Shown: positions 11,182 through 30,443 of the stretch, in pieces
How positions within the stretch are numbered: position 1 is the first letter of the stretch
Layout: every line of letters starts with the position of its first letter
NCBI RefSeq assembly: GCF_002836775.1
Contig: NZ_PJAQ01000028.1
Location: 1-64,000 of the forward strand
Direction: 5' to 3'
Length of the DNA stretch: 64,000 bases
From: Colwellia sp. 12G3
GTDB lineage: Bacteria > Pseudomonadota > Gammaproteobacteria > Enterobacterales > Alteromonadaceae
The notes under the pieces: model-generated
Told to the model about the DNA's origin: nothing
What the model saw: the letters and a program-made list of their open reading frames with translations, nothing else
The model's database searches: none
Program-made: the position numbers and the translations under genes

Positions 11182-12057
11182 ATGATGAATAAAATGACCA
11201 AACTGTTCGTACTATGTGCGTTAACGCTAAGTGTAAACGTCCTTGTTAGTATTAACGTGAGCGCCACAACATTTACTTTTACCGCGATTCCAGATGCAGA
11301 CGAATCTCAGCTGAGGACCCGCTTCGAAAAAGTTGCTCTCTATTTAGAAAAGAAACTTGGCGTTGAGGTAAAATATGTACCGGTTAAATCTTACTCTGCA
11401 GCAGTAACAGCATTTAAAAACAATCAGGTGCAACTTGCTTGGTTCGGTGGTTTATCTGGCGTACAAGCCCGACGATTAGTGCCCGGTTCAAAAGCGATAG
11501 CGCAAGGTTATGAAGATCAGTTTTTCAAAAGTTACTTTATTGCCCACTATAGTACGGGCTTAGCAATGAGCGAAAATTTTCCTGATATTACCCAGAAAAC
11601 GTTCACCTTTGGTTCAAAAGGCTCAACTTCCGGTAGATTGATGCCGCAATATTATATAGAACAGCATCTAAAAGAAAAACCACAACAAGCATTTAAACGT
11701 GTTGGTTTTTCTGGTGACCATAGCCGTACTATTGCCCAAGTTCAAGCAGGTGCCTACCAAGTTGGTGCTGTAAATTATACAGTATGGGAAAGTGCCCTTG
11801 CCGCTGGAAAAATTGATACCAATAAAGTAAAGGTTATTTGGGAAACCCCCGTCTACCCTGATTACCAATGGACGATACGCGCTGATGTTGATGCCAAATT
11901 TGGAAAACACTTTGCCGATAAAGTTCAAACGGCACTGCTCAATATGGATAGTCCCGAGTTATTAAAAAGTTTTCCACGGTCTTCATTCGTTAAAGCTGAA
12001 AATAAAGATTTTCAACCTGTCGAAGATGTGGCTAAACAAATTGGACTTATCGATTAA
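11182..12057 (+). CDS. ABC transporter substrate-binding protein, PhnD/putative selenate type
   Basis: The 291-residue protein has a signal peptide (~1-28). The mature protein opens F-T-F-T-A-I-P-D-A-D-E-S-Q-L and contains Q-L-A-W-F-G-G-L-S-G-V-Q-A-R and F-T-F-G-S-K-G-S-T-S-G-R-L-M-P. These are features of the PhnD-like branch that includes the putative selenate-binding proteins. It should deliver an oxyanion or phosphonate to the ABC complex encoded next. Its stop overlaps the ATPase start (TAATG). Two ATGs are possible (11182, 11185). Phosphonate is the main alternative ligand; no phn lyase genes are nearby. Confidence 0.82.
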   Translation: MMNKMTKLFVLCALTLSVNVLVSINVSATTFTFTAIPDADESQLRTRFEKVALYLEKKLGVEVKYVPVKSYSAAVTAFKNNQVQLAWFGGLSGVQARRLVPGSKAIAQGYEDQFFKSYFIAHYSTGLAMSENFPDITQKTFTFGSKGSTSGRLMPQYYIEQHLKEKPQQAFKRVGFSGDHSRTIAQVQAGAYQVGAVNYTVWESALAAGKIDTNKVKVIWETPVYPDYQWTIRADVDAKFGKHFADKVQTALLNMDSPELLKSFPRSSFVKAENKDFQPVEDVAKQIGLID

Positions 12058-12755
12058 TGATCACTATTGACAACTTAAACCTTCACTATGATAAAACCGC
12101 TGGTTACAACACGGATATAAAAGAGACCTCTACTCAGGTTATTTTTGATCTGAGTCTGACTATCAATGAAGGTGAAAAAGTTGCCATTATTGGTCCCTCT
12201 GGTGCAGGAAAATCTAGCCTGTTGCATCATTTGTATCAAGAGTTACAAGGCAATGCCGCTCTTTGCTCACAGCGCCAAGGTTTGGTTGATAATTTAAGTA
12301 TCTATCACAATATATTTATGGGGGCTTTGGCTAGACATCACTGGTTATTTAACTTAGTGAATTTAATTAGACCTTTCAAAAAAGAGTTAAGCAATGTTAG
12401 TTCACTTTGCCAACAGTTAGAATTAGACCAGCCACTGGCAAAGAAAGTGGATAAACTTTCTGGCGGACAAAGACAGCGAGTGGCATTAGCAAGAGCCCTG
12501 TATCAACAGCAAAATATTTTTATCGGCGACGAGCCCTTTTCAGCCCTTGATCCATTAATGGCATCAAGACTACTCGAAACCGTATTAAAAAGGCACAAAA
12601 CTGTCATCATGGTAATGCATGATAGAGAATTAGCGATGAGTGCATTTGACCGGGTTATCGCGTTAGATAAAGGTCATCTGGTACTTGATAGCCAACAGCA
12701 CAGTGTTGATCATCAACAGATTACCGCGCTGTATCAAACTAGCGCTGTCGCGTAA
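12057..12755 (+). CDS. ABC transporter ATP-binding protein (PhnC-like)
   Basis: A 232-residue ATPase with Walker A G-P-S-G-A-G-K-S-S (~49-57), signature L-S-G-G-Q-R-Q-R, Walker B I-F-I-G-D-E-P-F-S-A-L-D, and the switch histidine in V-M-H-D. It belongs to the PhnC/oxyanion importer group and is coupled by a one-base overlap to the binding protein. Eight bases separate it from the permease gene. All nucleotide-binding motifs are intact. Specificity comes from the binding protein, so the exact substrate is inferred. Confidence 0.9.
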   Translation: MITIDNLNLHYDKTAGYNTDIKETSTQVIFDLSLTINEGEKVAIIGPSGAGKSSLLHHLYQELQGNAALCSQRQGLVDNLSIYHNIFMGALARHHWLFNLVNLIRPFKKELSNVSSLCQQLELDQPLAKKVDKLSGGQRQRVALARALYQQQNIFIGDEPFSALDPLMASRLLETVLKRHKTVIMVMHDRELAMSAFDRVIALDKGHLVLDSQQHSVDHQQITALYQTSAVA

Positions 12756-12763
12756 GCCGTTTT

Positions 12764-14275
12764 ATGTCACAACTGCAGCAAGTGAAAAACACACATTATC
12801 CTTTGGGTTATTGGCAAAAAGTCACTTTATCAATATTGCTGATCGCACTGATTATTCTGCCGTTTGCCGATATAGAGATTGTTAACTTCGACCCTTTCCT
12901 CGAATTAACTCGCATGGTTGATGGGTTAATGACACCCGATTTTTTCGCGACTGAGTACCTGTTCCAAGCTATCATTCAAACCGTTAACTTTGCCATTTTA
13001 GGTGTTTGTTTAGGCCTAATACTTGGCACTCCCCTCGCGCTAATATACCAACATCCAATAATATCGGGTTGCTGTGCTTTTTTACGTGCGATCCATGAAA
13101 TTTTCTGGGCACTACTTTTTTTACAAATTTTTGGCCTTTCTCCCCTTACCGGAATTTTGGCTATCACTATTCCGTTTGCTGCCACCTTTGCCCGCGTATT
13201 TCACGATATCATTAACCAATCTTCAGACAGCCCTCTAGAGAGTATCGATAGCCGTGCCGATATTATTAGCCGTTTTACTTACGGAAAAATAGCCCAAGTG
13301 ATGCCACAACTTATGGCTTACACTCGCTACCGTTTTGAGTGTGCACTGCGTAGTAGTGCCGTGCTCGGCTTTATCGGTATGCCAACGTTAGGCTTTTATA
13401 TGGAAACCGCGTTCAGACAGGGACACTATAGCGAGGGTGCTGCGTTACTGATAATATTTATAGCCCTTATCGGCACAATTCGTTACTGGTGCCCACCCAA
13501 GTTACTTGGGGTTTATCTTGTTATTGCTTGTGTGACACTCATAGATATTCCTAACGTAGATAGCAGTCTACTGGTGCGTTTTATCAGCCAAGATATTTTG
13601 CCTTCTGCATTAGCAAATGCTTCGAGGTTGGCAGAGGTTCAATGGTCATCACTCTACACTTGGTTTAGTACTCTAATATCAGAGCAAGCCATTCCGGGTG
13701 CCTTAGCTACCATTACCCTGGCACTACTTGCCTTAGCAGTCAGCCACATTGTTACCTTAAATGCTCATGCAATGGCTAGTAAGCACCTATGGCCTACGCC
13801 ACTAACTTGGCTTGGCCAGTTAATCTTATTAATTGGGCGCTCAGTGCCTGAATATATCTTAGCGTTCATCTTTTTAATGCTGCTGGGCCCATCGATGTTA
13901 CCCGCGGTTATCGCCTTAGCCATACATAATGGTTGTGTGATCGCTTATTTGACTGTTAAACAAAGTAACTCCATCGCGCCTCAACAGATGCAGATGAGTA
14001 AACTTAATCAGTTTAACTACCACATAATGCCGAGTATCTATCCCAACATGATGGCCTTGATGTTTTATCGCTTCGAGATCATAGTGCGAGAAACCGCGGT
14101 GTTTGGTATTTTGGGTATTATGACGTTAGGATTTTATATCGACAGTAATTTCAGCGAAATACGTTATAGTAATGCACTCGTGCTTATCACGTGTACTGCC
14201 CTGCTCAATGTTGCCATTGATATACTATCAAGACGACTACTTAAGTTACCGAAAACGAGTCAGACGAGTTGTTAA
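12764..14275 (+). CDS. Fused dual-domain ABC permease (PhnE-like, doubled)
   Basis: The 503-residue membrane protein is two PhnE-type permease halves in one chain. Each half carries the coupling-helix pattern with R-(S/E)-(S/T)-A-V-(L/F)-G-(F/I) followed by a M-x-T-L-G-F-Y segment, once at ~200-215 and again at ~445-465. About a dozen hydrophobic segments are visible. A single doubled permease replaces the usual homodimer or PhnE pair. It is the last gene of the three-gene operon. Confidence 0.87.
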   Translation: MSQLQQVKNTHYPLGYWQKVTLSILLIALIILPFADIEIVNFDPFLELTRMVDGLMTPDFFATEYLFQAIIQTVNFAILGVCLGLILGTPLALIYQHPIISGCCAFLRAIHEIFWALLFLQIFGLSPLTGILAITIPFAATFARVFHDIINQSSDSPLESIDSRADIISRFTYGKIAQVMPQLMAYTRYRFECALRSSAVLGFIGMPTLGFYMETAFRQGHYSEGAALLIIFIALIGTIRYWCPPKLLGVYLVIACVTLIDIPNVDSSLLVRFISQDILPSALANASRLAEVQWSSLYTWFSTLISEQAIPGALATITLALLALAVSHIVTLNAHAMASKHLWPTPLTWLGQLILLIGRSVPEYILAFIFLMLLGPSMLPAVIALAIHNGCVIAYLTVKQSNSIAPQQMQMSKLNQFNYHIMPSIYPNMMALMFYRFEIIVRETAVFGILGIMTLGFYIDSNFSEIRYSNALVLITCTALLNVAIDILSRRLLKLPKTSQTSC

Positions 14276-14577
14276 CGATTGAAAAATATACCCTATTTTT
14301 TATTAGAATCTGTGTTGTTCTATTTTTCCCCCCACTCCCCTTTATTTTTAAGCACTTAACAAAATTGAAAACTCTCACGCTTACAACTCTATATTCATAT
14401 CAAGGTTAAATTGACAACAACTTGATCTAAAGCAATTAACTAAACACCTTTTCGACTACACTCATTTCAAGTGTTATGCTTTTAATTAGAAGAGTTATTG
14501 CAGTTGATGTACTGACTTTACACAATAAACAAGCTATCTCGACCTAACTAGCCCGCAATAATAGGAACAATGGTGTT
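14276..14577. other. Intergenic region before the AMP phosphorylase-like gene
   Basis: About 300 bp with no gene seen. It ends with AGGAAC and a four-codon ATG-GTG-TTA-TGT frame overlapping the real start codon at 14578, probably incidental. It should hold the promoter of the phosphorylase/PRPP synthetase operon. Confidence 0.4.
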
Positions 14578-16107
14578 ATGTTAAAAATCAAGTCTGTTGC
14601 CATTGACACCTTTAAAGAAAACGTCGTTTACTTACATCGCGACTGCCCGCTTTATCGCACTGAAGATTTTCAAGCCTTAATGAAAATTGAGATCTCTGTA
14701 AAAAAAAATGATACCCCTATTCTAGCCGTACTTAATATTGTTGATGATACGAGTATCGTCAACATAGACGAGTTGGGTTTAAGTACTCAAGCATTTAAAC
14801 AACTCAATAAGAAGCAAGGCGTTAAAGTCCAAATTGCGCCAGCACAACCACCAATATCATTGGCCGCGGTGCATAAAAAAATTGCGGGTGAAACGCTCAA
14901 TAAAGAAGATTTTCAACTGATATGCCAAGATATATTAGAAAACCGTTACTCTAAAATGGAAATTGCCGCTTTTTTAGTTGCCTGCAGTCATAGTGGTTTA
15001 GAACGTGAAGAAATATTCTTTTTAACTAAAGCCATGGTTGAGTCTGGAAAAAAACTTAATTGGGGCGAGTCTATTGTCGTTGATAAACATTGTATTGGTG
15101 GTATTCCTGGTAATAGAACCACCATGATAATTATGCCCATTGTTGCTGCCCATGGCATGTTAATGCCTAAAACATCGAGTAGAGCAATAACCTCGCCTGC
15201 AGGTACCGCTGACACCATGGAAGTACTAGCAAAGGTTGATCTTTCCATAGAGAGAATGAAGAATATAGTACAAAAACACCGTGGCATGCTCAGTTGGGGA
15301 GGGACAGCTAAGCTAGCCCCGGTAGATGATATTTTAATTTGCGTTGAACGCCCACTCGCTATGGATTCAACTGGTCAGTTAGTTGCTTCTATTTTATCAA
15401 AAAAAATTGCTGCCGGTTCAACGCACTTACTGATTGATATTCCCGTCGGCCCCTCGGCCAAAGTACATCAAAATCTTGATGCATTAAAACTTCGAAAGTT
15501 ATTTGAATATATCGGTGATCTATTTGGTTTACATATTGAGGTTGTATTCTCTGATGGCTCACAACCTATAGGAAATGGCATTGGTCCTGGGTTAGAAGCC
15601 CGAGATGTAATGCAAGTATTAAGTAATCAAAAGCATGCGCCAAGTGACTTACGAGAAAAGTCACTAAGATTAGCAGGAAGAATTTTAGAGTTTGATCCTG
15701 ATGTTCGAGGCGGGCAAGGTTATGTGATTGCCCGTGATATTCTTGAATCAGGTCGGGCCTATGAAAAAATGCAAGACATTATTGAAGCGCAAGGTAGGCA
15801 AGAAATAACAAAAAACAAAGCACGTTTTGAGCACAATGTGCTTGCCTCAACAGCGGGTTATATACATGCAATCGATAACTTAAAAATATCAACTATTGCG
15901 AGTTTAGCTGGTGCTCCTATCGATAAGATTTCCGGTATTGATTTACATAAAAAAGTGGGTGATAAAGTCAATAAAGGCGATATTCTCTTTACTATTTATG
16001 CTGATTTTAACAGTAACTTTGGCTTTGCTACTGAGTTTGCTAACGATAATGAAGCCTATACCCTAAAAAGCACTCGACCGGTTGAGCATGATAATTATTT
16101 TATATAA
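14578..16107 (+). CDS. Archaeal-type AMP/thymidine phosphorylase family protein
   Basis: At 509 residues this has the length of archaeal AMP phosphorylases rather than E. coli DeoA (~440). An extra N-terminal domain (~1-85) precedes the glycosyltransferase family 3 core. The core shows K-H-C-I-G-G-I-P-G-N-R-T-T (~170-182) and T-S-S-R-A-I-T-S-P-A-G-T-A-D-T-M, both characteristic of that branch. A pyrimidine nucleoside phosphorylase C-terminal domain follows from ~410. AMP phosphorylase makes adenine and ribose 1,5-bisphosphate from AMP and phosphate. Bacterial members are usually labelled putative thymidine phosphorylase. It lies 52 bp before a PRPP synthetase gene. Confidence 0.85.
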   Translation: MLKIKSVAIDTFKENVVYLHRDCPLYRTEDFQALMKIEISVKKNDTPILAVLNIVDDTSIVNIDELGLSTQAFKQLNKKQGVKVQIAPAQPPISLAAVHKKIAGETLNKEDFQLICQDILENRYSKMEIAAFLVACSHSGLEREEIFFLTKAMVESGKKLNWGESIVVDKHCIGGIPGNRTTMIIMPIVAAHGMLMPKTSSRAITSPAGTADTMEVLAKVDLSIERMKNIVQKHRGMLSWGGTAKLAPVDDILICVERPLAMDSTGQLVASILSKKIAAGSTHLLIDIPVGPSAKVHQNLDALKLRKLFEYIGDLFGLHIEVVFSDGSQPIGNGIGPGLEARDVMQVLSNQKHAPSDLREKSLRLAGRILEFDPDVRGGQGYVIARDILESGRAYEKMQDIIEAQGRQEITKNKARFEHNVLASTAGYIHAIDNLKISTIASLAGAPIDKISGIDLHKKVGDKVNKGDILFTIYADFNSNFGFATEFANDNEAYTLKSTRPVEHDNYFI

Positions 16108-16159
16108 TATCCATTACCAATCAGACTATTTTATTAATCACTTTTGTTAGGAAAATATA

Positions 16160-17125
16160 ATGCCACTGATCCTAGGTTTCGATGATTATTTATCACCCGC
16201 TATGCAACTTGCCCAAAGCATGCAAGCTGAATTTGGACTCGTTAAACTACACCAATTTCCTGACGGTGAAACTAAAGTGACACTCCCGGTAAATTTGCCA
16301 AAAAAAATTATTATTTGTCGTACGCTCAACCAACCAAATAATAAGTTAATAGATATTATCATCGCGGCAAGCGCGGCACGCAGTCAGGGTGTTGAGCACA
16401 TAACCTTAGTCGCGCCTTATTTATGTTATATGCGACAAGATATTGCTTTTAATGAGGGAGAGGCCGTTAGCCAAAAAATAATTGGTAAACTACTTAGCGA
16501 GTACTTCGATAGCGTCATCACCATAGACCCTCACTTACACCGCATTAGTAAACTCAGTGAAGCTATTCCAACCAATCAAGCGATTGCCTTGTACGCGACA
16601 AAGGCTATGTCGACATTTTTACAGCAGCACTTTAAAAATCCTATTATTATTGGTCCCGATGAAGAGTCAGCACAATGGGTTAAAGCGATTGCACAACCAC
16701 AAAACTGGCGTTATAGCATAGCTGTAAAGCAAAGATTTGATGATAAACATGTTGCCGTCAGTCTAGGTGAGTTATCAAACGGTGATAAACTGAATTCGAC
16801 CAACATAAGTTCAGCCGACTCCAATTCAGCTGATACTGTTTCAGGTAAAAGCTTACCGGTAAATATGAATAATCAAGACGTAGTGATTGTTGACGATATA
16901 GCCAGTACCGGAAAGACGCTAGAACAAACCATTGTACAATTACAGCAACACCAAACCGCGAGTATCTCAGTATTAGTCAGTCACGCCTTTTTTGTTGATG
17001 GTGCATTAGAGCGTTTAAAAGCTCTAGGTGTTACAAACATTTGGAGTAGTGATAGTGTTATCCATTCAACCAACGCTTTTAGCATCATTGATACTATCGT
17101 TGAGCAATTAAATAATACTCATTAA
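16160..17125 (+). CDS. Ribose-phosphate pyrophosphokinase homologue (archaeal-like)
   Basis: A 321-residue phosphoribosylpyrophosphate synthetase homologue. It has Y-M-R-Q-D-I-A-F-N-E-G-E-A-V-S near residue 95, D-P-H-L-H-R at 123-128 in place of the usual bacterial D-L-H-A-x-Q, and the PRPP loop V-V-I-V-D-D-I-A-S-T-G-K-T at ~241-253. The F-N-E-G-E motif and the D-P-H sequence resemble archaeal enzymes. A Ser/Asn/Asp-rich insertion (~205-235) sits just before the PRPP loop. It forms an operon with the AMP phosphorylase-like gene and is probably not the housekeeping prs. It may make PRPP from the phosphorylase product line. Confidence 0.83.
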   Translation: MPLILGFDDYLSPAMQLAQSMQAEFGLVKLHQFPDGETKVTLPVNLPKKIIICRTLNQPNNKLIDIIIAASAARSQGVEHITLVAPYLCYMRQDIAFNEGEAVSQKIIGKLLSEYFDSVITIDPHLHRISKLSEAIPTNQAIALYATKAMSTFLQQHFKNPIIIGPDEESAQWVKAIAQPQNWRYSIAVKQRFDDKHVAVSLGELSNGDKLNSTNISSADSNSADTVSGKSLPVNMNNQDVVIVDDIASTGKTLEQTIVQLQQHQTASISVLVSHAFFVDGALERLKALGVTNIWSSDSVIHSTNAFSIIDTIVEQLNNTH

Positions 17126-17792: not shown

Positions 17793-19004
17793 TTAAAATT
17801 TAGCGTTTAGCCATAACCATATTTTATTTGTATCAACCGTTCCTGCCGTTGCATCACCGGCAGAATAAGCCGCTAATTTGATACCTGCAGTATAGTTTTT
17901 AGTGAAACTATTAGAATAGATGGCATTAAATTCAGAGCCTAAATCATCAACGGTTGCAGAAGCTTCATCGGCATCAAATTTGTGATAGATAACGGCCCAT
18001 TTTCCGCCCGCAACTTTACCGCCAACACTGGCATATAAATCGGCGAGACCTTCTTTAGGCGTATTTAAGAATTGATCTGACCAACCATTAAATTTATGCA
18101 ACGTCGCTAAAGGCGTCGAAAAACCATAATTACCATTATCAGAGCCAAGTAATTCGTAACCCACTTTCAAACCAATACCTGAAAATGCAGTACTTAGTTC
18201 AGCTAAGAGGTAATCAGCGGAGTAAGACGTGGTTGCATTATCAGCATCTTGTTGAGCATATTCTACTTGGTAAGATATTTTTTGTTCACCAATTGACGTG
18301 CCGCCATTAAAACGAATACCAAAGGTATCTAAACCATTATCAGTATCGTTATCAACTTCTAATAAATAGCCGTAAGCAGTGATTTTACCCAATGATGTTT
18401 TGTAAGCTGCATTGAGTAAATGATCATTAGAATCTATATCTTTAGCTTCGGCAAAAATTCTATTACGTTTGGTAATATAACCATAATCTACCGTTAAATC
18501 TTTAATGGGTTGATAAGCAAAAGTTACCCCATCAAATGTTTGCCTATCTTGGCGCCAGCCAACATGACCAACAAAACGATGATTATCCATTGTTATCAAC
18601 TGACGACCCACTTTGATGGCGAGAGATTTTTGTTGGTATTGCAGTAAAAATTGATCAAGCTCTGTTGTTTCAGGATCGGCTATCACTGAATAATCGGTAT
18701 TTTTACCTAAGGTATTATTGTAATCATCCATGCCAAGTACTGTGCGAGAATCTTCAAATTCGATTAAGGAAGAAAAGCCTGCTACCTTACCTGTTTCGTA
18801 AGTTAAACGCGTGCGTAAAGTAAGCGCATCAGCATCTTTTTTGGTGTTGTCTTGATCTACTGTTTCATAACGTAGGTTTAAATTAATCTTGGTTTTACCA
18901 TTAATTACGGCTTCTGCTATTGAAGAATTTTCAGCAAAAGCCATAGATGAACAACTACCTGCTAAGCTGATGGATAGACATAAAGCGATTTTATTCAATG
19001 TCAT
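17793..19004 (-). CDS. Outer-membrane porin of the nitrate uptake locus
   Basis: The 403-residue precursor has a signal peptide (~1-25, ending M-A-F-A). The rest is an alternating beta-strand sequence rich in Y, D and N that ends in the outer-membrane signature phenylalanine (W-L-N-A-K-F). It resembles alginate-export/OprD-like porins, with V-G-R-Q-L-I-T-M-D-N and G-W-R-Q-D-R-Q-T-F-D-G-V in the first half. It is last in the nitrate ABC operon, which suggests that it passes nitrate across the outer membrane in nutrient-poor seawater. That role is inferred from position. A 64-bp tandem repeat separates it from nrtD. Confidence 0.8.
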   Translation of the reverse strand: MTLNKIALCLSISLAGSCSSMAFAENSSIAEAVINGKTKINLNLRYETVDQDNTKKDADALTLRTRLTYETGKVAGFSSLIEFEDSRTVLGMDDYNNTLGKNTDYSVIADPETTELDQFLLQYQQKSLAIKVGRQLITMDNHRFVGHVGWRQDRQTFDGVTFAYQPIKDLTVDYGYITKRNRIFAEAKDIDSNDHLLNAAYKTSLGKITAYGYLLEVDNDTDNGLDTFGIRFNGGTSIGEQKISYQVEYAQQDADNATTSYSADYLLAELSTAFSGIGLKVGYELLGSDNGNYGFSTPLATLHKFNGWSDQFLNTPKEGLADLYASVGGKVAGGKWAVIYHKFDADEASATVDDLGSEFNAIYSNSFTKNYTAGIKLAAYSAGDATAGTVDTNKIWLWLNAKF

Positions 19005-19046: not shown

Positions 19047-19110
19047 TTATTTTTAATTATTTTTAATTATTTTTAATTATTTTTAATTATTTTTAATTAT
19101 TTTTAATTAT
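19047..19110. repeat. Tandem 10-bp repeat (TTTTAATTAT) between nrtD and the porin gene
   Basis: At least six consecutive exact copies of TTTTAATTAT, plus a partial copy at the left end. The array abuts and just reaches the stop codon of the upstream ATPase gene. The 10-bp period puts A/T tracts in phase with the helix, so the DNA may be bent. Copy number is likely to vary by slippage. Confidence 0.85.
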
Positions 19111-20006
19111 TATTGTGTACTGACACGTTTTCTCGGTATTGATTTTGGGGTTACCGCTTTACTGCTAATGTTCTCTACCTTTCTTTGTTTCTCATAAAGG
19201 AAAGTTAATACCTCAGAACGAAGTCGGTTATATTCAATATCTTTGGCAAGCGACAATCGACTGCGCGGGCGTTCAAGTTTAACATCGAGAATTTCACCCA
19301 CAGTGGCTTCAGGCCCATTAGTCATCATCACGATGCGATCAGAAAGCAATACCGCTTCATCAACATCATGGGTGATCATGATCACCGTGTTATTCAGCTC
19401 ATTTTGAATTTCCATCAGTGAGTCTTGCATATGCGCTCGGGTTAAGGCATCAAGGGCACCAAACGGCTCATCCATTAATAAAACTTCTGGCTGCATCGCT
19501 AAGGCACGCGCAATACCGACCCGTTGCTTCATACCACCAGATATTTCATCGGGACGTTTAAACATGGCGTGGTCCATGTGTACAAGTTTTAAGTTGTATT
19601 CAATCCATTCTTTCATTTCACCTTTTGACATGGTTTTGTTGAAGACTTGCTTTACCGCTAGTTCAACATTTTGATATGCCGTTAACCAAGGCAACAATGA
19701 GTGGTTTTGAAAAACAACAGCACGTTCAGGTCCGGGTTCATTTACTTCTTTATTCTGCAGTAAAATACCGCCTTTCGTTGCTTGATAAAGTCCTGCAACA
19801 ATATTAAGTACGGTTGATTTCCCACAACCAGAGTGACCAATCAGCGAAATAAACTCGCCTTTATCAATTTTAAGATCTACATTCTTTAACGCCGTAAAGC
19901 CGCCAGTATCTGTAGGGAAAACCATGTCTATTTGACTAATATTTAAAAAGGCTTGTGCCGTATTCTTTTCTAAAAATTCAGGGTTTTCTAAAGCTGATAA
20001 ATTCAT
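19110..20006 (-). CDS. nrtD: Nitrate ABC transporter ATP-binding protein
   Basis: A 298-residue ATPase with Walker A G-H-S-G-C-G-K-S-T, Q-loop V-F-Q-N-H-S-L-L-P-W-L-T, signature I-S-G-G-M-K-Q-R, and Walker B V-L-L-M-D-E-P-F-G-A-L-D. The H-S-L-L-P-W and G-G-M-K-Q-R forms are typical of the nitrate/sulfonate/taurine importer group. It ends in a basic tail after residue 265. It is nine bases downstream of nrtB. It lacks the NrtA-like C-terminal domain of cyanobacterial NrtC and so corresponds to NrtD. Confidence 0.9.
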   Translation of the reverse strand: MNLSALENPEFLEKNTAQAFLNISQIDMVFPTDTGGFTALKNVDLKIDKGEFISLIGHSGCGKSTVLNIVAGLYQATKGGILLQNKEVNEPGPERAVVFQNHSLLPWLTAYQNVELAVKQVFNKTMSKGEMKEWIEYNLKLVHMDHAMFKRPDEISGGMKQRVGIARALAMQPEVLLMDEPFGALDALTRAHMQDSLMEIQNELNNTVIMITHDVDEAVLLSDRIVMMTNGPEATVGEILDVKLERPRSRLSLAKDIEYNRLRSEVLTFLYEKQRKVENISSKAVTPKSIPRKRVSTQ

Positions 20007-20015
20007 AATGATTCC

Positions 20016-21014
20016 TTAAACGCTTGCGCTTGATTTGTCCCAAGAAACTTTTCGTTGTAGCTCCAGCATCGCTCGGTCCAATAAAAAGCCGATAAAGCCA
20101 ATAACAATGACCGCCGCCATGATACGAGCCAAAGAGTCTGAACTACCATTTTGGAACTCATCCCAAACAAACTTACCTAAGCCGGGGTTTTGTGCCAACA
20201 TTTCTGCAGCAATCAGTACCATCCATGCAACACCAAATGACAAACGCATACCCGTGAAAATCATCGGGACTGACGCAGGTAATACTATTTTTTGAATATG
20301 GGTAAATGTAGGTAGGCGTAAAACTTTACTTACATTGAGTAAGTCGCTGTCTATTGAAGAAACACCAATAGAGGTATTGATTACCATTGGCCACAAGCTA
20401 CATAAGCTAACGGTAATTAACGACGTTAAGAATGACTTTGATACCATAGGATCATCAGAGACATAAAGTGCACTAACAACCATAGTAACTAAAGGCAGCC
20501 ATGCCAGCGGTGATACCGGTTTAAATATTTGCACAATAGGGTTTATTGCTGAATTTAAACGTTTATTTAATCCCATCCAAATACCAAGTGGAATGGCAAT
20601 GATTGCTGCGACTAAAAAACCACAGGTTACCGTGAATAAACTAGTAAGAATTTGATCAAAAAAGGTTTCCTTACCTGTATATGCTCTTATCTTGCCAACA
20701 TAGTTAGGATTGTTCACCTGCTTAGCTAAATTGCGTTTCTCCTGTCGCTGATAAAAGGCTTCAGCTTTTTCTCGCTCTGCGACATGTTCGATATAGAGTG
20801 ACGAAAATTGTTTAACAACCGCATTGGGGCCAGGAAACGTACCTAAAGAGGTATGAATACTTTGTGCTGAAATTGACCATAAAAATAAAAATATTGTTAA
20901 GCCAATAACAGGCAGTAACATCGCATTAGTGATTTTACTTAAGACATTTTTAGAAACTTTCATCACCTGCTTTGTTACGGTTAATTGGCTTGCATTTACT
21001 GTTGTTAAACTCAT
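20016..21014 (-). CDS. nrtB: Nitrate ABC transporter permease
   Basis: This 332-residue inner-membrane protein has about six transmembrane segments and the binding-protein-dependent transport signature around A-A-E-M-L-A-Q-N-P-G-L-G-K-F-V-W-D-E-F, typical of NrtB/TauC/SsuC. An extended periplasmic loop (~75-115) is charged (E-R-E-K-A-E-A-F-Y-Q-R-Q-E-K-R), as in proteobacterial NrtB. It lies 38 bases after nrtA. Together with two copies of NrtD it should form the inner-membrane nitrate channel. Confidence 0.9.
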   Translation of the reverse strand: MSLTTVNASQLTVTKQVMKVSKNVLSKITNAMLLPVIGLTIFLFLWSISAQSIHTSLGTFPGPNAVVKQFSSLYIEHVAEREKAEAFYQRQEKRNLAKQVNNPNYVGKIRAYTGKETFFDQILTSLFTVTCGFLVAAIIAIPLGIWMGLNKRLNSAINPIVQIFKPVSPLAWLPLVTMVVSALYVSDDPMVSKSFLTSLITVSLCSLWPMVINTSIGVSSIDSDLLNVSKVLRLPTFTHIQKIVLPASVPMIFTGMRLSFGVAWMVLIAAEMLAQNPGLGKFVWDEFQNGSSDSLARIMAAVIVIGFIGFLLDRAMLELQRKVSWDKSSASV

Positions 21015-22500: not shown

Positions 22501-22553
22501 AAAAAAAAACGCCCACCAATATTCAGCCCATTAAGGTTGATTATTGATGAGCG
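22501..22553 (-). terminator. Leader terminator of the nitrate operon
   Basis: Read on the minus strand, CGCTCATCAATA (22553-22542) pairs over twelve positions, counting G-U pairs, with TATTGGTGGGCG (22521-22510). Nine Ts follow at 22509-22501. It lies ~60 bases before nrtA with no gene in between, so it would stop transcription of the operon unless relieved. Its 5' arm overlaps the second ANTAR hairpin at 22549-22562. Confidence 0.88.
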
Positions 22554-22616
22554 CCATTGCTCGTATAGTGAAAAGGCTTATGCCTATCATTATCCTGCAG
22601 CGTCGTTGCTGTCAGG
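22549..22616 (-). promoter_or_regulatory. Dual-hexaloop ANTAR antitermination element
   Basis: On the minus strand, the first hairpin (22616-22594) has stem CCTGaCAGC/GCTGCAGG with one bulged A and hexaloop AACGAC. The second (22562-22549) has stem GAGC/GCTC and hexaloop AATGGC. Both loops have A at position 1 and G at position 4, the pattern recognised by ANTAR-domain antiterminators. The 3' arm of the second hairpin is also the 5' arm of the terminator, so protein-stabilised hairpins would preclude termination. A third small hairpin (AGGC-ATAA-GCCT) lies between them. Confidence 0.8.
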
Positions 22617-22713
22617 CTTTATTACTTTATTTTTATCGCCGTTGACAAAAATATTTTTTGTTTTGCTGTGTTAACTTAATCTGGTACTTAGTTAATTACT
22701 TACATAGATGAAT

Positions 22714-22729
22714 TGCAGGTATTATGCCA
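22714..22729 (-). promoter_or_regulatory. Putative sigma-54 promoter of the nitrate operon
   Basis: The minus-strand sequence TGGCATAATACCTGCA fits the sigma-54 pattern TGGCAC-N5-TTGCA, with the GG and GC elements at correct spacing and two mismatches. Transcription would start near 22702, giving a leader that contains the whole ANTAR element. A weaker sigma-70 alternative (TTGTCA, 18 bp, TAATAA) lies downstream near 22645-22620. Confidence 0.55.
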
Positions 22730-22812
22730 ATTTGAATTTTATTACTTTTACTGGCCTCACAACGTTTTACTGTGTAATTAGCTATCTTAATTGCACAATA
22801 ATAATGATGAAA

Positions 22813-22829
22813 TGCACCACACTTGTTCA
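22813..22829. promoter_or_regulatory. Candidate NtrC binding site
   Basis: TGCACC-ACACT-TGTTCA resembles the NtrC site TGCACC-N5-GGTGCA, with a perfect left half and four of six matches in the right half. It is ~95 bp upstream of the putative sigma-54 promoter, a usual enhancer distance, and lies just past the nasT stop codon. Confidence 0.45.
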
Positions 22830-22836
22830 TATACCT

Positions 22837-23496
22837 CTATACCTTAGGTGTTGACAGCAGTTGACACACATCAATAATGTTTTTTGCTACCGTCGCCAGT
22901 GATCCTCCTTGATCCATTGCCATTTTCCTTAGCGTGCCATAAGCCTCATTTTCACTTATTTGCTTTTGTTGCATGATCAGCCCTTTTGCTCTTTCAATAT
23001 ACTTGCGACTTTCTAACTGGGTTTTAGCCTGTTTAAGCTCGTTATGTAAAGACTGTACAGATTTAAAGCGTTCATTGGCGACTGAAATAATACTCTTGAG
23101 TCGTTGAGGTAATATTTCATTAACCACATAAGCACTGACACCCGATTTAATCGCGTTCTGAATAACATTGGGTGAATCATTTTCTGCGAATATAACAATA
23201 GGTAAAGGTGATAATTGATTTATTTCCGCCAGATCCCTCAAGGTTGCCTCACTAGGTAAGTCAGTCGCTAGAATAAGAATACTGGGATTACATAAATCAA
23301 TTTGTTCAATCATATTGTCATAAAAAGAGATGTGTTTAGTAATATGATAACCAAAATCCATTAATGCGCTTTTCAGCATAGAGCTAGCGTTTGGTTGCTC
23401 TTCAATTAAAAGCACACTGATATTTTCTAATCCTTGATCAATTGCATTTTTACGCAAAAGATTATTTTTGTTGACCCGTTTATTGTTAAGGCTCAT
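22837..23496 (-). CDS. nasT: ANTAR-domain response regulator NasT
   Basis: A 219-residue regulator with an N-terminal receiver-like domain (~28-145; V-L-L-I-E-E and L-I-L-A-T-D around the phosphorylation pocket) and a C-terminal ANTAR domain (~155-215). The ANTAR part shows Y-I-E-R-A-K-G-L-I-M, E-x-E-A-Y-x-x-L-R-K-M-A and V-A-K-N-I-I-D. NasT binds paired hexaloop hairpins in nitrate-assimilation leaders to prevent termination; such an element lies directly downstream. The acidic pocket is E-E rather than D-D. The usual nitrate-sensing partner NasS is not in this window. Confidence 0.9.
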   Translation of the reverse strand: MSLNNKRVNKNNLLRKNAIDQGLENISVLLIEEQPNASSMLKSALMDFGYHITKHISFYDNMIEQIDLCNPSILILATDLPSEATLRDLAEINQLSPLPIVIFAENDSPNVIQNAIKSGVSAYVVNEILPQRLKSIISVANERFKSVQSLHNELKQAKTQLESRKYIERAKGLIMQQKQISENEAYGTLRKMAMDQGGSLATVAKNIIDVCQLLSTPKV

Positions 23497-25812: not shown

Positions 25813-26409
25813 TTAACTCATTTTTTGTTGGCGAACCAATAAAGTTAACGCCACCAACATTAAAATGATAGCTGTGGGCTCAGGAACATCAACAGGGTTT
25901 CCTGAAGTAACAGAATATGCTTTATCACTAGCACTCACATCAGTAAACGCAGCGCCAAAATCATCACCAAAAGCCAAGTTGCTTAAATCTACAGTGCCTG
26001 AGCCATTGCCAATCACAGTAAAATCAACACTAGCCAAGACAAAACTGCTTACGCCATCTTGTACTACTAAGAGTTCGTCCCACCAGGCATAACTAGTTTC
26101 TGATAAACCTAAGCTGTCGGCCATGTCATCACTAAATTGATCACTACCACCCGCGCCAACATTGAGTTTATTCCCAAAACGGGTAGATACATACTCGATT
26201 ATCGAATTGTCCCAAGAGACATTAAAATCAAAGGTAGCCAATAACTTTTGAAAACCAACAGCGTCTTCTTCAATATCAGAAATGATAAAATCTGCCGTTA
26301 ATACGTCACCAATTTGATAACTGTCTTGATTTAACTCAATGTTTAGTAACGTTGCTTGGCTACTGAGCGAAATTAAAAGTGTTGCTAAAAGTGTTATTAT
26401 TTTTTTCAT
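25813..26409 (-). CDS. PEP-CTERM surface protein with cohesin-like domain
   Basis: A 198-residue protein with a signal peptide (~1-19), a beta-sandwich domain (~22-165) with the cohesin-like pattern D-S-Y-Q-I-G-D-V-L-T ... F-D-F-N-V-S-W-D-N-S-I, and a C-terminal PEP-CTERM signal (V-P-E-P-T, a hydrophobic helix, then R-Q-Q-K). PEP-CTERM proteins are processed by exosortase and end up at the cell surface or in the matrix; the exosortase gene is not in this window. It lies 90 bp downstream of a same-strand nuclease with a dockerin-like end, suggesting a cohesin-dockerin pair. Confidence 0.82.
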   Translation of the reverse strand: MKKIITLLATLLISLSSQATLLNIELNQDSYQIGDVLTADFIISDIEEDAVGFQKLLATFDFNVSWDNSIIEYVSTRFGNKLNVGAGGSDQFSDDMADSLGLSETSYAWWDELLVVQDGVSSFVLASVDFTVIGNGSGTVDLSNLAFGDDFGAAFTDVSASDKAYSVTSGNPVDVPEPTAIILMLVALTLLVRQQKMS

Positions 26410-26498
26410 GGTTACTTCCTTATATATAAATGTTTAAGTAAATTTTAAATTAACGAATGAATTTACTTAAAGTCACTTAAGTAAATTCAAGCTAAATA

Positions 26499-29400
26499 TT
26501 ATTCTGCCGCGCAGCGCGAACGTGTACATAAAGACATTAATGCTCGGACATCACCGCTATTGACTACATTATCGAGGTTGAAGTCATATTTACTATCATC
26601 AACATCACCGCTGCGAACCATAGCGGAGAACTGATTAACATCATTGCGATCGATATCACCATCAACATCAAAATCTCCCACGAGTTCAACCGAGCTATTT
26701 AAATTGAGCGAAACTATAACGGGATCATGATCTGATGCACGGTAAGCATCTTCAGCAAAATATGTCGCTAATTGTTCAGACGATTTATATTCAGTGTTGT
26801 AATCGAAAATATGGGGTTCATCGGCATTGATATGCCAAACAGTGGTATCGACAACTTGACTAGCTAAGTCGTTGCTCGCTAAGGCATGGTCTAAGTACCC
26901 TATTTCACCGCCAAAACTATAAGAGTAAGCTGCACTTCCTAGATGATCTGCCACCAAGTTATGATAATTACTGTCGATAATGGCATTAATAGGATCTTCT
27001 TTACCGTAAGCATTTAAATCACCAATGATAAGAAAGTCACTATCCGTTGAACCCGTAGGATTAGTATTTAACCAAGCAGTTAAACCTTGTGCCGCTTGAG
27101 TTCTCAGTTCATTCCAACATCCTTGACCATCACCTTGATCGAGGTTATTACCCGATGCACTGCCACAACTTCCTTTTGATTTAAAATGATTAACCGCAAT
27201 GGTTAATGCTTCATTAGTCGCAATTTCTTTGAAGGTTTGTACCAGCGGTTGACGGTTGCCATAATCGAATGGACTTTGATTGGTAGTGATTGCATCCCCC
27301 ATCAAGGCAACGGTAGCTGGTTTATAAATAAGTCCAACAGTTATGGCATCGCCACCAATACCCGCTTGGTTGATGCTAACGTAGTTGTATGTTCCAACAC
27401 CCAACTTCACATTAAGCTGTGAAACAAGCTCCGCAATGGCACTGTTACTGGCAAAACCATCATTTTCTAGCTCCATCAGGCCAACAATATCGGCATTGAT
27501 ATCTGCTAGAGCCGACACTATTTTGCTACTTTGACGAGTAAACTCTTCTAACGTATCCGCGCCCCGAGCGGTAGGAAAACCTTGACCCGCGCCATCACCA
27601 TTAAAGTAATTTAATACGTTAAAGCTGGCTACTTTTAACGAACCAGTCCCGGTAATCTCGGGTTGTGCAGTTCTTGCATTAGTCGGGTTAAACTGTGGTG
27701 TGTTACTAGGTAAAATACGATAAGTATTAAAACTATAATCAATAACACCAGTCAAGTTAGCAACAGAGTCACCTAAGCGTAACGTATTTTGATAGCTTAA
27801 TCCCGGCGCCGGAAAGGGCACGTTATCTGGGTTTTGTGCATTATTCATATCATCTAAAGTGATACGATTTCGATTGTTTTTATCTGCTAAAGCAATAGCT
27901 TGCTCACTACCGGCATTATAAATATTGGTAGGAAGAATCAAACGGCCATTAGACAATGTTAACTGACCATAACGCGCCAAATTATAGGTATCACTTACTT
28001 TTAATGTATCCGAAAAGTTTACCGACATGCCTTCAATACTTTCCCAGTAATCAGTAGTTGATACCGGTAAAGACACCATAGTTGCTGCAATGGGCTCACC
28101 AACACCACAATCAACAAAGTCAGTTGTTGCCGTTAACTGAGTACGACCATAGCTCTCTTTTATGCTGCCGTTTATCCGTACTTTATTGCCCACGGTAGGG
28201 AAATTTGCAATAGCGTTGAAATAAACAAAGATGGCTTCAGAAGTCATTAGATCTGTATCGGTATCTTGCGCTTCTTCTTGAACAAAATAGCCTTTTAAAC
28301 TTGGCACAGCAAAAGTAACCGTACCTTCAATCACCTTAACTTCGCCAATAACTGCTGAGTCACTGCCGCTACCTTGGATTACATTAATTTTATCTGCATC
28401 ATCACCACACATTCCGATCACCGGGTCTTCACCTGGGTCTGTCGGTGGCGTAGTAGATAAATGAGCGCCTAAGTTATCAAAAGTATCTTTTGAATTAGTT
28501 TGCCATTGGTCTGCTTTAATAAATTCATCGGTACGGTCGTTATCGCCTGATGTTACCGAAGCTAAGCGGACTAATGAGGTATCTTGACCCCAATTTTGTC
28601 TAACACCATAGGTGCCGATATTATCGATAATTATATCGCCATGAAGCAGTTCGATATAATCATCACCATTAAAATTAACCGCTCCGACAAAATGGTCAAT
28701 ATAAGGGACTAAAGCACTATCATCTGCAATTTGACTCGAGCCTAAAACCACCACATCATTTGCGAGTAGTTGCCCTGTTAAGGTATAGCTCCCCGTAGCT
28801 GTTTGACTACCGTTCGAATAAAGTTTGAATTGATAATCGGCTAAGTCGATAGTTGTATCCGTCGGATTATAAATTTCTATCGCTTTATTAAAGCTCGAAC
28901 CTTCAACGTATTCGGAGAAAAACAAATCAACGCCTGGCTCTGTTGGATCTACCGGATCGATTGGATCAACAGGGTCAACGGGATCTACGGGGTCAACATC
29001 TGAACATGATGCACTGTAAAGCGTTGCAATCCACTCAGGATGGTCAATAAATGGGTTACGGTTTCCTTGAAATTCGTAAATTTTGTTATTTCTATTTATT
29101 TCGAAGTCATCAACAGGATCCGCTTCACTCCACGCTAACAACGTACATAACTTACCTAATTTGGCTTCACCGCCAGACGTTAGCATATCAACAACTTGTA
29201 AATCAGGTGTCACCGAGTCCAACCCGGCATAGCGCGTATCCATATAAAAAACGATACGGGCAACATCACCTTTCACCGCATCTCTTGGCTCAAAAGAGTT
29301 GCCGTCGACGCGGTTTTCTGGCGATTCAGGTAAAGCATTATCGCTATTATCAAAATCTAAATTGCCTCGTGATGAGTTAACTGAAATATCAGTAGGTCTT

Positions 29401-30443
29401 AAATGGTGAATGTCTGAATAAGCAAACGCACTAGAGCTTGGGAAACCATGGCTTTTTGCCCAAACATGTTCACGATTCCAGTTATCAGGATTTGTCGATT
29501 GTGTACCGCTACCGTTTGAGAATTTTTCTTTTGAAAGTCCGCGATAAAATAATATAACATTGTCTGCATTCAGGGGATCTTCATCCGTCACAGTTAATGC
29601 GGTCCAAGCTTCAGAATAAGTTAACTGTTTATGATTGGCTGAAATAACGTCATTGATATTGGTGCGGATGACCTCTGCACTTTGTGCTGAATCAATAGCG
29701 GTAATAACCGGTGCATAATAACTGGCATCATCAAAGTCTGCAGCACTCGCTATTCGGCTCAAATCAGGGCAGTTAAAACAAGCATTCGTCACGGTACCAC
29801 CGTCAGTACTGCCTGAGCCATCATCTACGCCTGAAGTAATTATTACATCATCTAAACGTATATATTCAGTGCCTGAGTTATTTGCCATCGAGACTTTAAT
29901 TTGCAGGCTACTTCCTTGGGGAATGGCTTGGCTGAGTGTGACAGCAGTAAAATCATCAATTAAGGTATGACTATCATTGCCTTTGCCTTGCCAGTTTTCT
30001 ACCCTGACAAATGCGGCATTATCTACTGAATATGAAAGGTCAAAAAAATCGGTTGATTCGTGGCTGCCACTTTCTTCGGCTAAAACAGACAGATTGACAT
30101 TAGTTTGTCCTTCAATGCTAATAGGCTCTGACAACCAATCGACACTGCCATCAACATCTCTAGCCTCAACTTTGCTATTGGTCACTTTAAACCAATCACT
30201 GTTCGCCGTTAATTGAGCATTACTAACATCGATAGACCAACGCGTAACGCCGCTCATATCAACAGTATCAAAAACAGCCCCTTTATTGGCTAAGGTCGCA
30301 TCATTAAAATCTTCTGACCATAGTGTTTGTGCACTTAACGCACTATGAGTAACAAAACTTGAAGCAACACACAGTGCAATCAAGCTGAAATTTAACTTAC
30401 CATTGCCGAAGAATCGACTTGGATTTACCTTACTAGTATTCAT
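26499..30443 (-). CDS. Multidomain secreted nuclease: endonuclease I + lamin tail + EEP + dockerin-like
   Basis: The 1314-residue precursor has a signal region (~1-38), a jelly-roll-like domain (~40-205) and an endonuclease I domain (~235-485) with N-R-E-H-V-W-A-K-S-H-G and Y-S-D-I-H-H-L-R-P. A (V-D-P)n linker (~485-505) leads to a lamin-tail domain (~507-640; L-F-F-S-E-Y-V-E-G), an OB-like region (~690-800) and an ExeM/NucH-type endonuclease/exonuclease/phosphatase domain (~930-1245; A-S-F-N-V-L-N-Y-F, ending S-D-H-D-P-V). The tail (~1255-1310) has two EF-hand-like calcium loops like a type I dockerin. It probably degrades extracellular DNA. ExeM relatives usually lack the endonuclease I part. 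Confidence 0.88.
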   Translation of the reverse strand: MNTSKVNPSRFFGNGKLNFSLIALCVASSFVTHSALSAQTLWSEDFNDATLANKGAVFDTVDMSGVTRWSIDVSNAQLTANSDWFKVTNSKVEARDVDGSVDWLSEPISIEGQTNVNLSVLAEESGSHESTDFFDLSYSVDNAAFVRVENWQGKGNDSHTLIDDFTAVTLSQAIPQGSSLQIKVSMANNSGTEYIRLDDVIITSGVDDGSGSTDGGTVTNACFNCPDLSRIASAADFDDASYYAPVITAIDSAQSAEVIRTNINDVISANHKQLTYSEAWTALTVTDEDPLNADNVILFYRGLSKEKFSNGSGTQSTNPDNWNREHVWAKSHGFPSSSAFAYSDIHHLRPTDISVNSSRGNLDFDNSDNALPESPENRVDGNSFEPRDAVKGDVARIVFYMDTRYAGLDSVTPDLQVVDMLTSGGEAKLGKLCTLLAWSEADPVDDFEINRNNKIYEFQGNRNPFIDHPEWIATLYSASCSDVDPVDPVDPVDPIDPVDPTEPGVDLFFSEYVEGSSFNKAIEIYNPTDTTIDLADYQFKLYSNGSQTATGSYTLTGQLLANDVVVLGSSQIADDSALVPYIDHFVGAVNFNGDDYIELLHGDIIIDNIGTYGVRQNWGQDTSLVRLASVTSGDNDRTDEFIKADQWQTNSKDTFDNLGAHLSTTPPTDPGEDPVIGMCGDDADKINVIQGSGSDSAVIGEVKVIEGTVTFAVPSLKGYFVQEEAQDTDTDLMTSEAIFVYFNAIANFPTVGNKVRINGSIKESYGRTQLTATTDFVDCGVGEPIAATMVSLPVSTTDYWESIEGMSVNFSDTLKVSDTYNLARYGQLTLSNGRLILPTNIYNAGSEQAIALADKNNRNRITLDDMNNAQNPDNVPFPAPGLSYQNTLRLGDSVANLTGVIDYSFNTYRILPSNTPQFNPTNARTAQPEITGTGSLKVASFNVLNYFNGDGAGQGFPTARGADTLEEFTRQSSKIVSALADINADIVGLMELENDGFASNSAIAELVSQLNVKLGVGTYNYVSINQAGIGGDAITVGLIYKPATVALMGDAITTNQSPFDYGNRQPLVQTFKEIATNEALTIAVNHFKSKGSCGSASGNNLDQGDGQGCWNELRTQAAQGLTAWLNTNPTGSTDSDFLIIGDLNAYGKEDPINAIIDSNYHNLVADHLGSAAYSYSFGGEIGYLDHALASNDLASQVVDTTVWHINADEPHIFDYNTEYKSSEQLATYFAEDAYRASDHDPVIVSLNLNSSVELVGDFDVDGDIDRNDVNQFSAMVRSGDVDDSKYDFNLDNVVNSGDVRALMSLCTRSRCAAE

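Follow-up and report, generated by a model that had tools for sequence, protein, structure and literature searches.

A three-hexaloop ANTAR-type leader ahead of nrtABC in Colwellia sp. 12G3 and its NasT clade, in which no NasS was found

The leader that lies between a nasT-like gene and the nrtABC transporter genes of Colwellia sp. 12G3 carries three hairpins whose hexaloops have A at position 1 and G at position 4 (A1/G4), and three such hexaloops are able to form in all 12 distinct nrtA leaders of the clade to which this NasT belongs. We consider it probable that leaders of this kind are started by NtrC and sigma-54, antiterminated by NasT and gated by something other than NasS. Given that the NasT proteins of this clade appear neither to be held by a NasS nor to have the usual receiver aspartate, the gate is most likely NasT abundance or another input, and not the known NasS-nitrate switch.

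Anatomy of the locus and its leader

The stretch of DNA that was analysed (64,000 nucleotides, hereafter the window) is contig C63 of a 5.06-Mb assembly in 68 contigs, and the order on its minus strand is nasT, leader, nrtA, nrtB, nrtC and porin (Table 1). No nasS lies beside nasT. The nrtA-like protein has an apparent signal peptide, as judged by eye without a prediction tool. A porin gene follows nrtABC in all eight relatives that carry nasT, leader and nrtABC on a long enough stretch (L006-L010, L045, L047 and L048), and among the relatives compared the block from nasT to the porin is kept together and its flanks vary.

Other genes of the window deserve a brief record. The plus strand at 11182-17125 encodes a putative selenate/phosphonate-type ABC transporter (TIGR04553, 383 bits) with PhnC- and PhnE-like partners, and directly after these genes in the same region come an archaeal-type AMP/thymidine phosphorylase (PRK04350, 681 bits) and then a ribose-phosphate diphosphokinase. 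Two proteins are encoded on the minus strand at 25813-30443. One, of 198 aa, ends in what by eye looks like a PEP-CTERM tail, and the other, of 1314 aa, combines endonuclease I, lamin-tail and exo/endonuclease domains. Relatives of both adjoin nasT in two other genomes (G084 and G112), again by eye.

Table 1. Coordinates of the leader, its promoter-like sites and the adjoining genes in the window
Feature	Position	Strand	Basis or remark
Candidate NtrC site TGAACAAGTGTGGTGCA	22813..22829	-	10/12 letters of consensus; 0/300 shuffles equal
Second GTGCA half-site	22792..22796	-	motif match
Sigma-54-like promoter TGGCATAATACCTGC	22715..22729	-	8/11 letters of consensus
P0, 10-bp hairpin, hexaloop AACGGC at 22638-22643	22628..22653	-	A1/G4; new relative to the initial annotation
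P1, hairpin with one bulge, hexaloop AACGAC at 22602-22607	22594..22616	-	A1/G4; fold, alignment
Pi, folded linker hairpin, no A1/G4 hexaloop	22565..22593	-	predicted fold
P2, antiterminator hairpin, hexaloop AATGGC at 22553-22558	22549..22562	-	A1/G4; fold, alignment
Terminator stem, overlapping P2	22508..22555	-	fold
Terminator T run, nine T	22501..22509	-	sequence
nasT-like gene, 219 aa, degenerate receiver domain and ANTAR domain	22837..23496	-	PF03861 68.8 bits, PF00072 33.2 bits
nrtA-like substrate-binding protein, 461 aa	21053..22438	-	PF13379 319.5 bits
nrtB-like permease	20016..21014	-	TIGR01183 163 bits, under cut-off 209; PF00528
nrtC/D-like ATPase	19110..20006	-	TIGR01184 347.7 bits, above cut-off
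Porin	17793..19004	-	downstream of nrtABC in relatives too

An initial annotation, made from the sequence letters, had described this leader as a complete motif of two hairpins, with loops AACGAC and AATGGC, and a terminator ending in nine Ts. Both hairpins (P1 and P2) and the terminator were recovered, and the observed elements of the leader are confirmed. The motif proved larger than described, with a third A1/G4 hexaloop hairpin (P0) upstream and a further predicted hairpin (Pi) between P1 and P2. The segment from 22505 to 22620 folds at -44.3 kcal/mol (z -6.2), which none of 200 shuffles equalled. Because the 5' arm of the terminator stem begins within the P2 loop, P2 and the terminator are mutually exclusive, just as had been proposed. 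P0 and P1 are 36 nt apart from loop start to loop start and are joined by an 11-nt linker. Two marks of an ANTAR-target RNA, namely at least two A1/G4 hexaloop hairpins and a last hairpin that overlaps an intrinsic terminator, are found here.

Two routine searches failed to return the leader. A scan of the minus strand for terminators did not report the leader terminator because it permits loops of no more than eight, and the structure was recovered by folding. A covariance search with the ANTAR RNA model had also been suggested, and across the window Rfam had no match that reached its gathering score; six matches between 22350 and 22950 at E values up to 10 were of unrelated kinds and far under their gathering scores, and were set aside.

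The NtrC site and sigma-54-like promoter named in the initial annotation are likewise present. We scored both kinds of site against a consensus, with shuffles as the control. Taken by itself the sigma-54-like site of the window is weak, because 4 of 100 shuffles match it, which makes it moderately rare. A sigma-54-like GG-N10-GC element with 8-10 of 11 letters stands upstream of the hairpins in all 12 clade leaders (0-4 of 100 shuffles equal), and the best NtrC-like match falls at -97 to -101 relative to this element in ten of them. The NtrC-like score lies above nearly all shuffles (at most 7 of 300 equal) in nine leaders and does not exceed the shuffles in L008, L009 and L045. Nine leaders have a second GTGCA, at -66 to -68 relative to the sigma-54-like site. 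The genome also encodes NtrC over the curated cut-off (737 bits). At the level of sequence, the GG-N10-GC element and upstream NtrC sites expected of an NtrC/sigma-54 promoter are both in place, and transcription would be expected to start at about 22703, upstream of all the hairpins.

Conservation within the clade and across the family

The 12 leaders comprise those of the window, L005, L006/G038, L007, L008, L009, L010, G003, G076, G030, G135 and G023, where L006 (Colwellia echini) and G038, which is of the same genus as the window genome, are counted as one genome, and L011 is outside the set since its sequence ends ahead of the leader. All three hexaloops appear in the unconstrained minimum-energy fold of ten leaders; in G003 and G023 the full set was obtained by stem search, with not all of the loops in the minimum-energy fold. 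In G003 the distance between P0 and P1 is 77 nt, and the place that Pi occupies in the others is taken by an additional, fourth A1/G4 hexaloop, AGCGAT. The most distant member is G023; its loop spacings are still 35 and 50, and its loops AGTGTT, ATCGAG and ACAGGC are entirely unlike those of the other leaders and yet all A1/G4. When each of the 12 leaders was shuffled 300 times with dinucleotide composition preserved, none of the 3600 sequences folded with more than one A1/G4 hexaloop, compared with three in eight of the real leaders and two in the other four (L008, L048, G003 and G023) by the same strict count; in L008 and L048 there is a bulge near the P1 loop.

The comparison with relatives that the initial annotation had called for bears out the conservation of the A1/G4 loops in all 12 clade leaders. 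P0 itself is A1/G4 throughout the set, shares the AAYGGC loop type of P2 in 10 of 12 leaders and lies 35-37 nt from P1, loop to loop, in 11. An alignment of ten leaders (A2, with G003 and G023 left out) fits the P0-P1-Pi-P2 structure with 86.6% of cells paired and with a covariation score of 0.183 versus 0.111, and in neither respect did any of 500 shuffles score as high. Changes on both sides are seen in 9 of 30 pairs (2 of 500 shuffles as high), and further pair types are weakly above shuffles (22 of 500). By helix, the paired cells amount to 96% for P0, 90% for P1, 69% for Pi, where 4 of 10 pairs have changed on both sides, and 100% for P2. Covariation is silent on P2 because its four pairs never vary across the ten sequences.

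In the same ten leaders the linkers measure 7-12 nt between P0 and P1 and 29-33 nt between P1 and P2. The longer linker is taken to be folded, because Pi is predicted in all ten folds. PMC8164766 states a linker range of 2-25 nt for ANTAR RNAs, within which the P0-P1 linker falls and beyond which the P1-P2 linker extends; PMC8934654 describes the loss of EutV antitermination upon the addition of 20 nt. Taken together, the sequences support an ANTAR-type antitermination leader, with A1/G4 hexaloops, exclusion between P2 and terminator, and NtrC- and sigma-54-like sites, that is conserved in the clade. No such leader lies downstream of nasT in G034 and G078, the two clade genomes in which NrtA was not found.

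To place P0 in a wider setting, 91 sequences upstream of nrtA in the family were scanned, two of them duplicates of clade leaders. The P2-terminator arrangement was returned in 89 of the 91, although the one returned for L146 lies inside the gene and is spurious. In 23 of the 91, P2 is preceded at 26-31 nt by a canonical partner hexaloop, from which it follows that a third hexaloop is not generally needed. Eleven of these 23 canonical leaders fold with an upstream hairpin of loop AANAGC at -76 to -103, and stem search gave one more at -105. These hairpins keep A1, have A and not G at position 4, and differ in their stems (for example, L078, L097 and L106). Their occurrence in canonical leaders would make a P0-like hairpin older than the clade, and the many other family leaders that fold with P2 alone indicate that upstream hairpins are not universal. 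As read from its loop letters, the clade form of P0 is the one that bears the full A1/G4 code.

One further leader of the family should be mentioned. In G098 (L085 and L162) the leader of nrtA contains A1/G4 hexaloops and a P2 resembling that of the window, and the genome gave no NasT match at 1e-10; a NIT domain found elsewhere in that genome, in a 428-aa frame, suggests NasR as the regulator of this leader.

The reach of the leader within the genome appears to be narrow. A search for other ANTAR targets with model R1, in which 150 of 7083 first-look candidates were scored, returned this leader only at E values up to 10; the model is itself narrow, because it missed the G023 leader and found that of G003 only at E 0.004. 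The P2 pattern has one exact match in the genome, and its two-mismatch version is uninformative since it matches 23 places and its reversed control also 23. Contig C41 of the same genome (G000, L198) carries narK, a kinase/phosphatase-like gene, nirB, nirD and nasA in one region. Strong NtrC-like and sigma-54-like sites precede nirB-nirD-nasA and narK, and neither an A1/G4 hexaloop nor a T run was found between promoter-like site and gene. The same is true of nirB in G135 and G078, and in G038 the corresponding stretch before nirB contains a single AT-rich A1/G4 hairpin and no terminator. Since the leader is absent before nirBD-nasA and narK, gating by NasT here appears to be limited to uptake.

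NasT in genomes without a detected NasS

Nine genomes make up the window clade in the NasT tree (G000, G038, G078, G135, G076, G034, G030, G003 and G023; support 100/98), of which G076 is 84% complete and the other eight 99-100%. Searched with PF13379, which reports NasS beside NasT at about 245-251 bits in the control genomes G033, G077 and G173, none of the nine yielded a NasS, the matches being NrtA and weak ones of at most 52 bits. NrtA is in fragments in G076, and not even NrtA was found by this model in G034 and G078. G034 (L042) and G078 (L043) nevertheless keep an intact nasT though nasS, nrtA and leader were not found. Of the features expected of a NasS-NasT system, the nasT with an ANTAR domain is present, and nasS was not found in these nine genomes.

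Across the family, the NasT query finds a match at 1e-10 in 82 of 196 genomes. For G024, G129 and G149 the match is confined to the ANTAR part and lies in long frames, and in G129 a NIT-ANTAR protein of the NasR type was confirmed. Among the other 79 NasT genomes, a NasS-like match to an NrtA query at E values up to 1e-30 was seen in 53 and none in 26; outside the nine clade genomes and G113, where the family model likewise found no NasS, these calls were made without that model and could overlook a weak NasS. On a tree of these 79 proteins the NasS label must change at least six times, and in four cases well-supported branches force the change. The number of NasS losses is approximate, given the midpoint rooting of the tree and the long branches of several rows. 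In G112 (L165, 3029-3853), a gene for a family-3 solute-binding protein lies on the opposite strand between nasT and nrtA, in the place where NasS would be expected.

The NasT proteins of the clade differ from the others in their receiver domain. The receiver aspartate is present in 51 of 53 NasTs from NasS-bearing genomes versus none of the nine from the clade, where the position holds A, V, S or G (Ala77 in the window). Loss of this residue is not a rule of NasS loss, because the other NasS-less groups are mixed (kept in 7 of 8 in the G050/G113 group and in 3 of 9 in the rest). The ANTAR positions A170, K171, E182, A185, K191 and M194 are identical in all 79 NasTs. With its ANTAR residues fixed and its receiver aspartate gone, the clade NasT is, as judged from these positions, a protein that has kept its RNA-binding half and lost its switch half. 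It has receiver and ANTAR domains only and is not a NIT-ANTAR fusion of the NasR kind.

Possible gating and relation to known systems

The initial annotation had read the logic of the leader as NtrC AND nitrate, the latter through NasT. The NtrC part finds support in the conserved promoter-like sites, and the nitrate part is not supported in the form given, with no NasS found. In the NasS-NasT systems studied so far, it is NasS and not NasT that senses nitrate. Nitrate gating would need another sensor, because NasS is the known one and none was found in the clade. Moreover, loss of NasS in Paracoccus leads to constitutive expression, as described in PMC3795266, and for this reason the nitrate condition is not transferable from the studied systems.

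We picture the leader as a conditional terminator ahead of nrtABC. Under nitrogen limitation, NtrC and sigma-54 probably start transcription near 22703, and P0 and P1 would be the first hairpins to fold in the nascent RNA. Together they could form a two-loop docking site for NasT, as their 11-nt linker fits the published dual-hexaloop spacing. Pi would then fold the long P1-P2 linker such that P2 emerges near the docked NasT, which may be relayed to P2 from P0 and P1. NasT on P2 would keep the 3' arm of P2 from the terminator and let RNA polymerase continue into nrtABC, and the terminator would form when NasT is lacking. Our suggestion that the input is NasT dosage or a new signal, read through a relay in which P0 and P1 load, Pi positions and P2 acts, is a tentative one.

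Several other readings must be weighed. NasT might be a constitutive antiterminator and NtrC the sole regulator, with the terminator mainly stopping transcription that began at the nasT promoter or that occurs while NasT is scarce. This is a possibility to be taken seriously, if short of probable, given that NasS was not found, that the receiver aspartate is lost, that the Paracoccus nasS mutant is constitutive (PMC3795266) and that nasT and leader stand in tandem, where neither visual inspection nor the scan of that strand showed a separate terminator for nasT. However, a strong terminator and three docking loops have been kept in 12 leaders, which suggests that the choice between the two structures matters. 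We regard it as unlikely that nitrate gating persists through another cytoplasmic sensor, such as a NIT-domain protein or an unrecognized solute-binding protein, in place of NasS. NIT domains do occur elsewhere in the genome, and the at least four well-supported changes and the 26 of 79 NasT genomes without a NasS match show that its loss is tolerated, perhaps through a replacement, but nasT has no linked candidate partner in the clade, and the NIT matches lie in frames of 694-1090 aa without ANTAR, the single ANTAR match of the genome being the nasT-like gene.

P0 could also be a structural or RNA-stability hairpin that does not bind NasT, leaving P1 and P2 alone to matter. Canonical family leaders manage with two A1/G4 hexaloops, and the AANAGC hairpins of 11 of the 23, plus the one from stem search, imply that G4 is dispensable at this place; yet the invariable A1/G4 code of the clade P0, its usual likeness to the P2 loop and its nearly constant distance from P1 make such a bystander role rather doubtful. 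It is most improbable that the leader is a decaying relic of NasS loss. NasS is gone, and nrtA and the leader have been lost in two clade genomes, but in the genomes that have nrtA, compensating changes have maintained the hairpins, the loops and the terminator. The preferred reading remains a NasT-antiterminated, three-hexaloop leader with a gate other than NasS.

We found neither a NasS-less NasT nor a three-hairpin ANTAR leader described in the open-access PMC literature, and either may be in print. A NasT that lacks NasS raises the question of what role an ANTAR antiterminator serves without a ligand-bound inhibitor. With the NasS-NasT systems of Paracoccus, Azotobacter and Pseudomonas, the present case shares a receiver-ANTAR NasT encoded before nitrate-assimilation genes and a leader between regulator and target, whereas here NasS was not found, the receiver aspartate is lost and the leader precedes the transporter only and not nirBD-nasA. 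Control of nitrate uptake or assimilation by an ANTAR protein is also a feature of NasR (in Klebsiella, and in G129), but NasR has its own NIT sensor domain and the window protein does not.

Among RNAs, the closest counterparts are the dual-hexaloop ANTAR targets of the eut, amiE and nasF leaders, which have in common with the clade leaders the A1/G4 hexaloops with a C-G closing pair, the exclusivity of second hairpin and terminator, and an adjoining gene for an ANTAR protein. The clade leaders differ in having three A1/G4 hexaloops, a P1-P2 linker that is predicted to form its own hairpin, and a P0-P1 pair that has the usual spacing without overlapping the terminator. In the model for EutV, as set out in PMC8934654, the dimer is first recruited by one hexaloop and then passed to the antiterminator hexaloop while the latter is being transcribed. 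By analogy, successive binding to upstream and then antiterminator hexaloops would be common to both cases, with two upstream hexaloops here instead of one. The three-hexaloop leaders are therefore a natural variant for a direct test of the recruitment model, since nature has varied, among them, the rule of spacing, how many docking sites there are and what part a folded linker plays. On the sequence evidence, the leader carries the switch of the initial annotation with three putative docking loops in place of two, and no gene was found for NasS, the usual nitrate-sensing partner.
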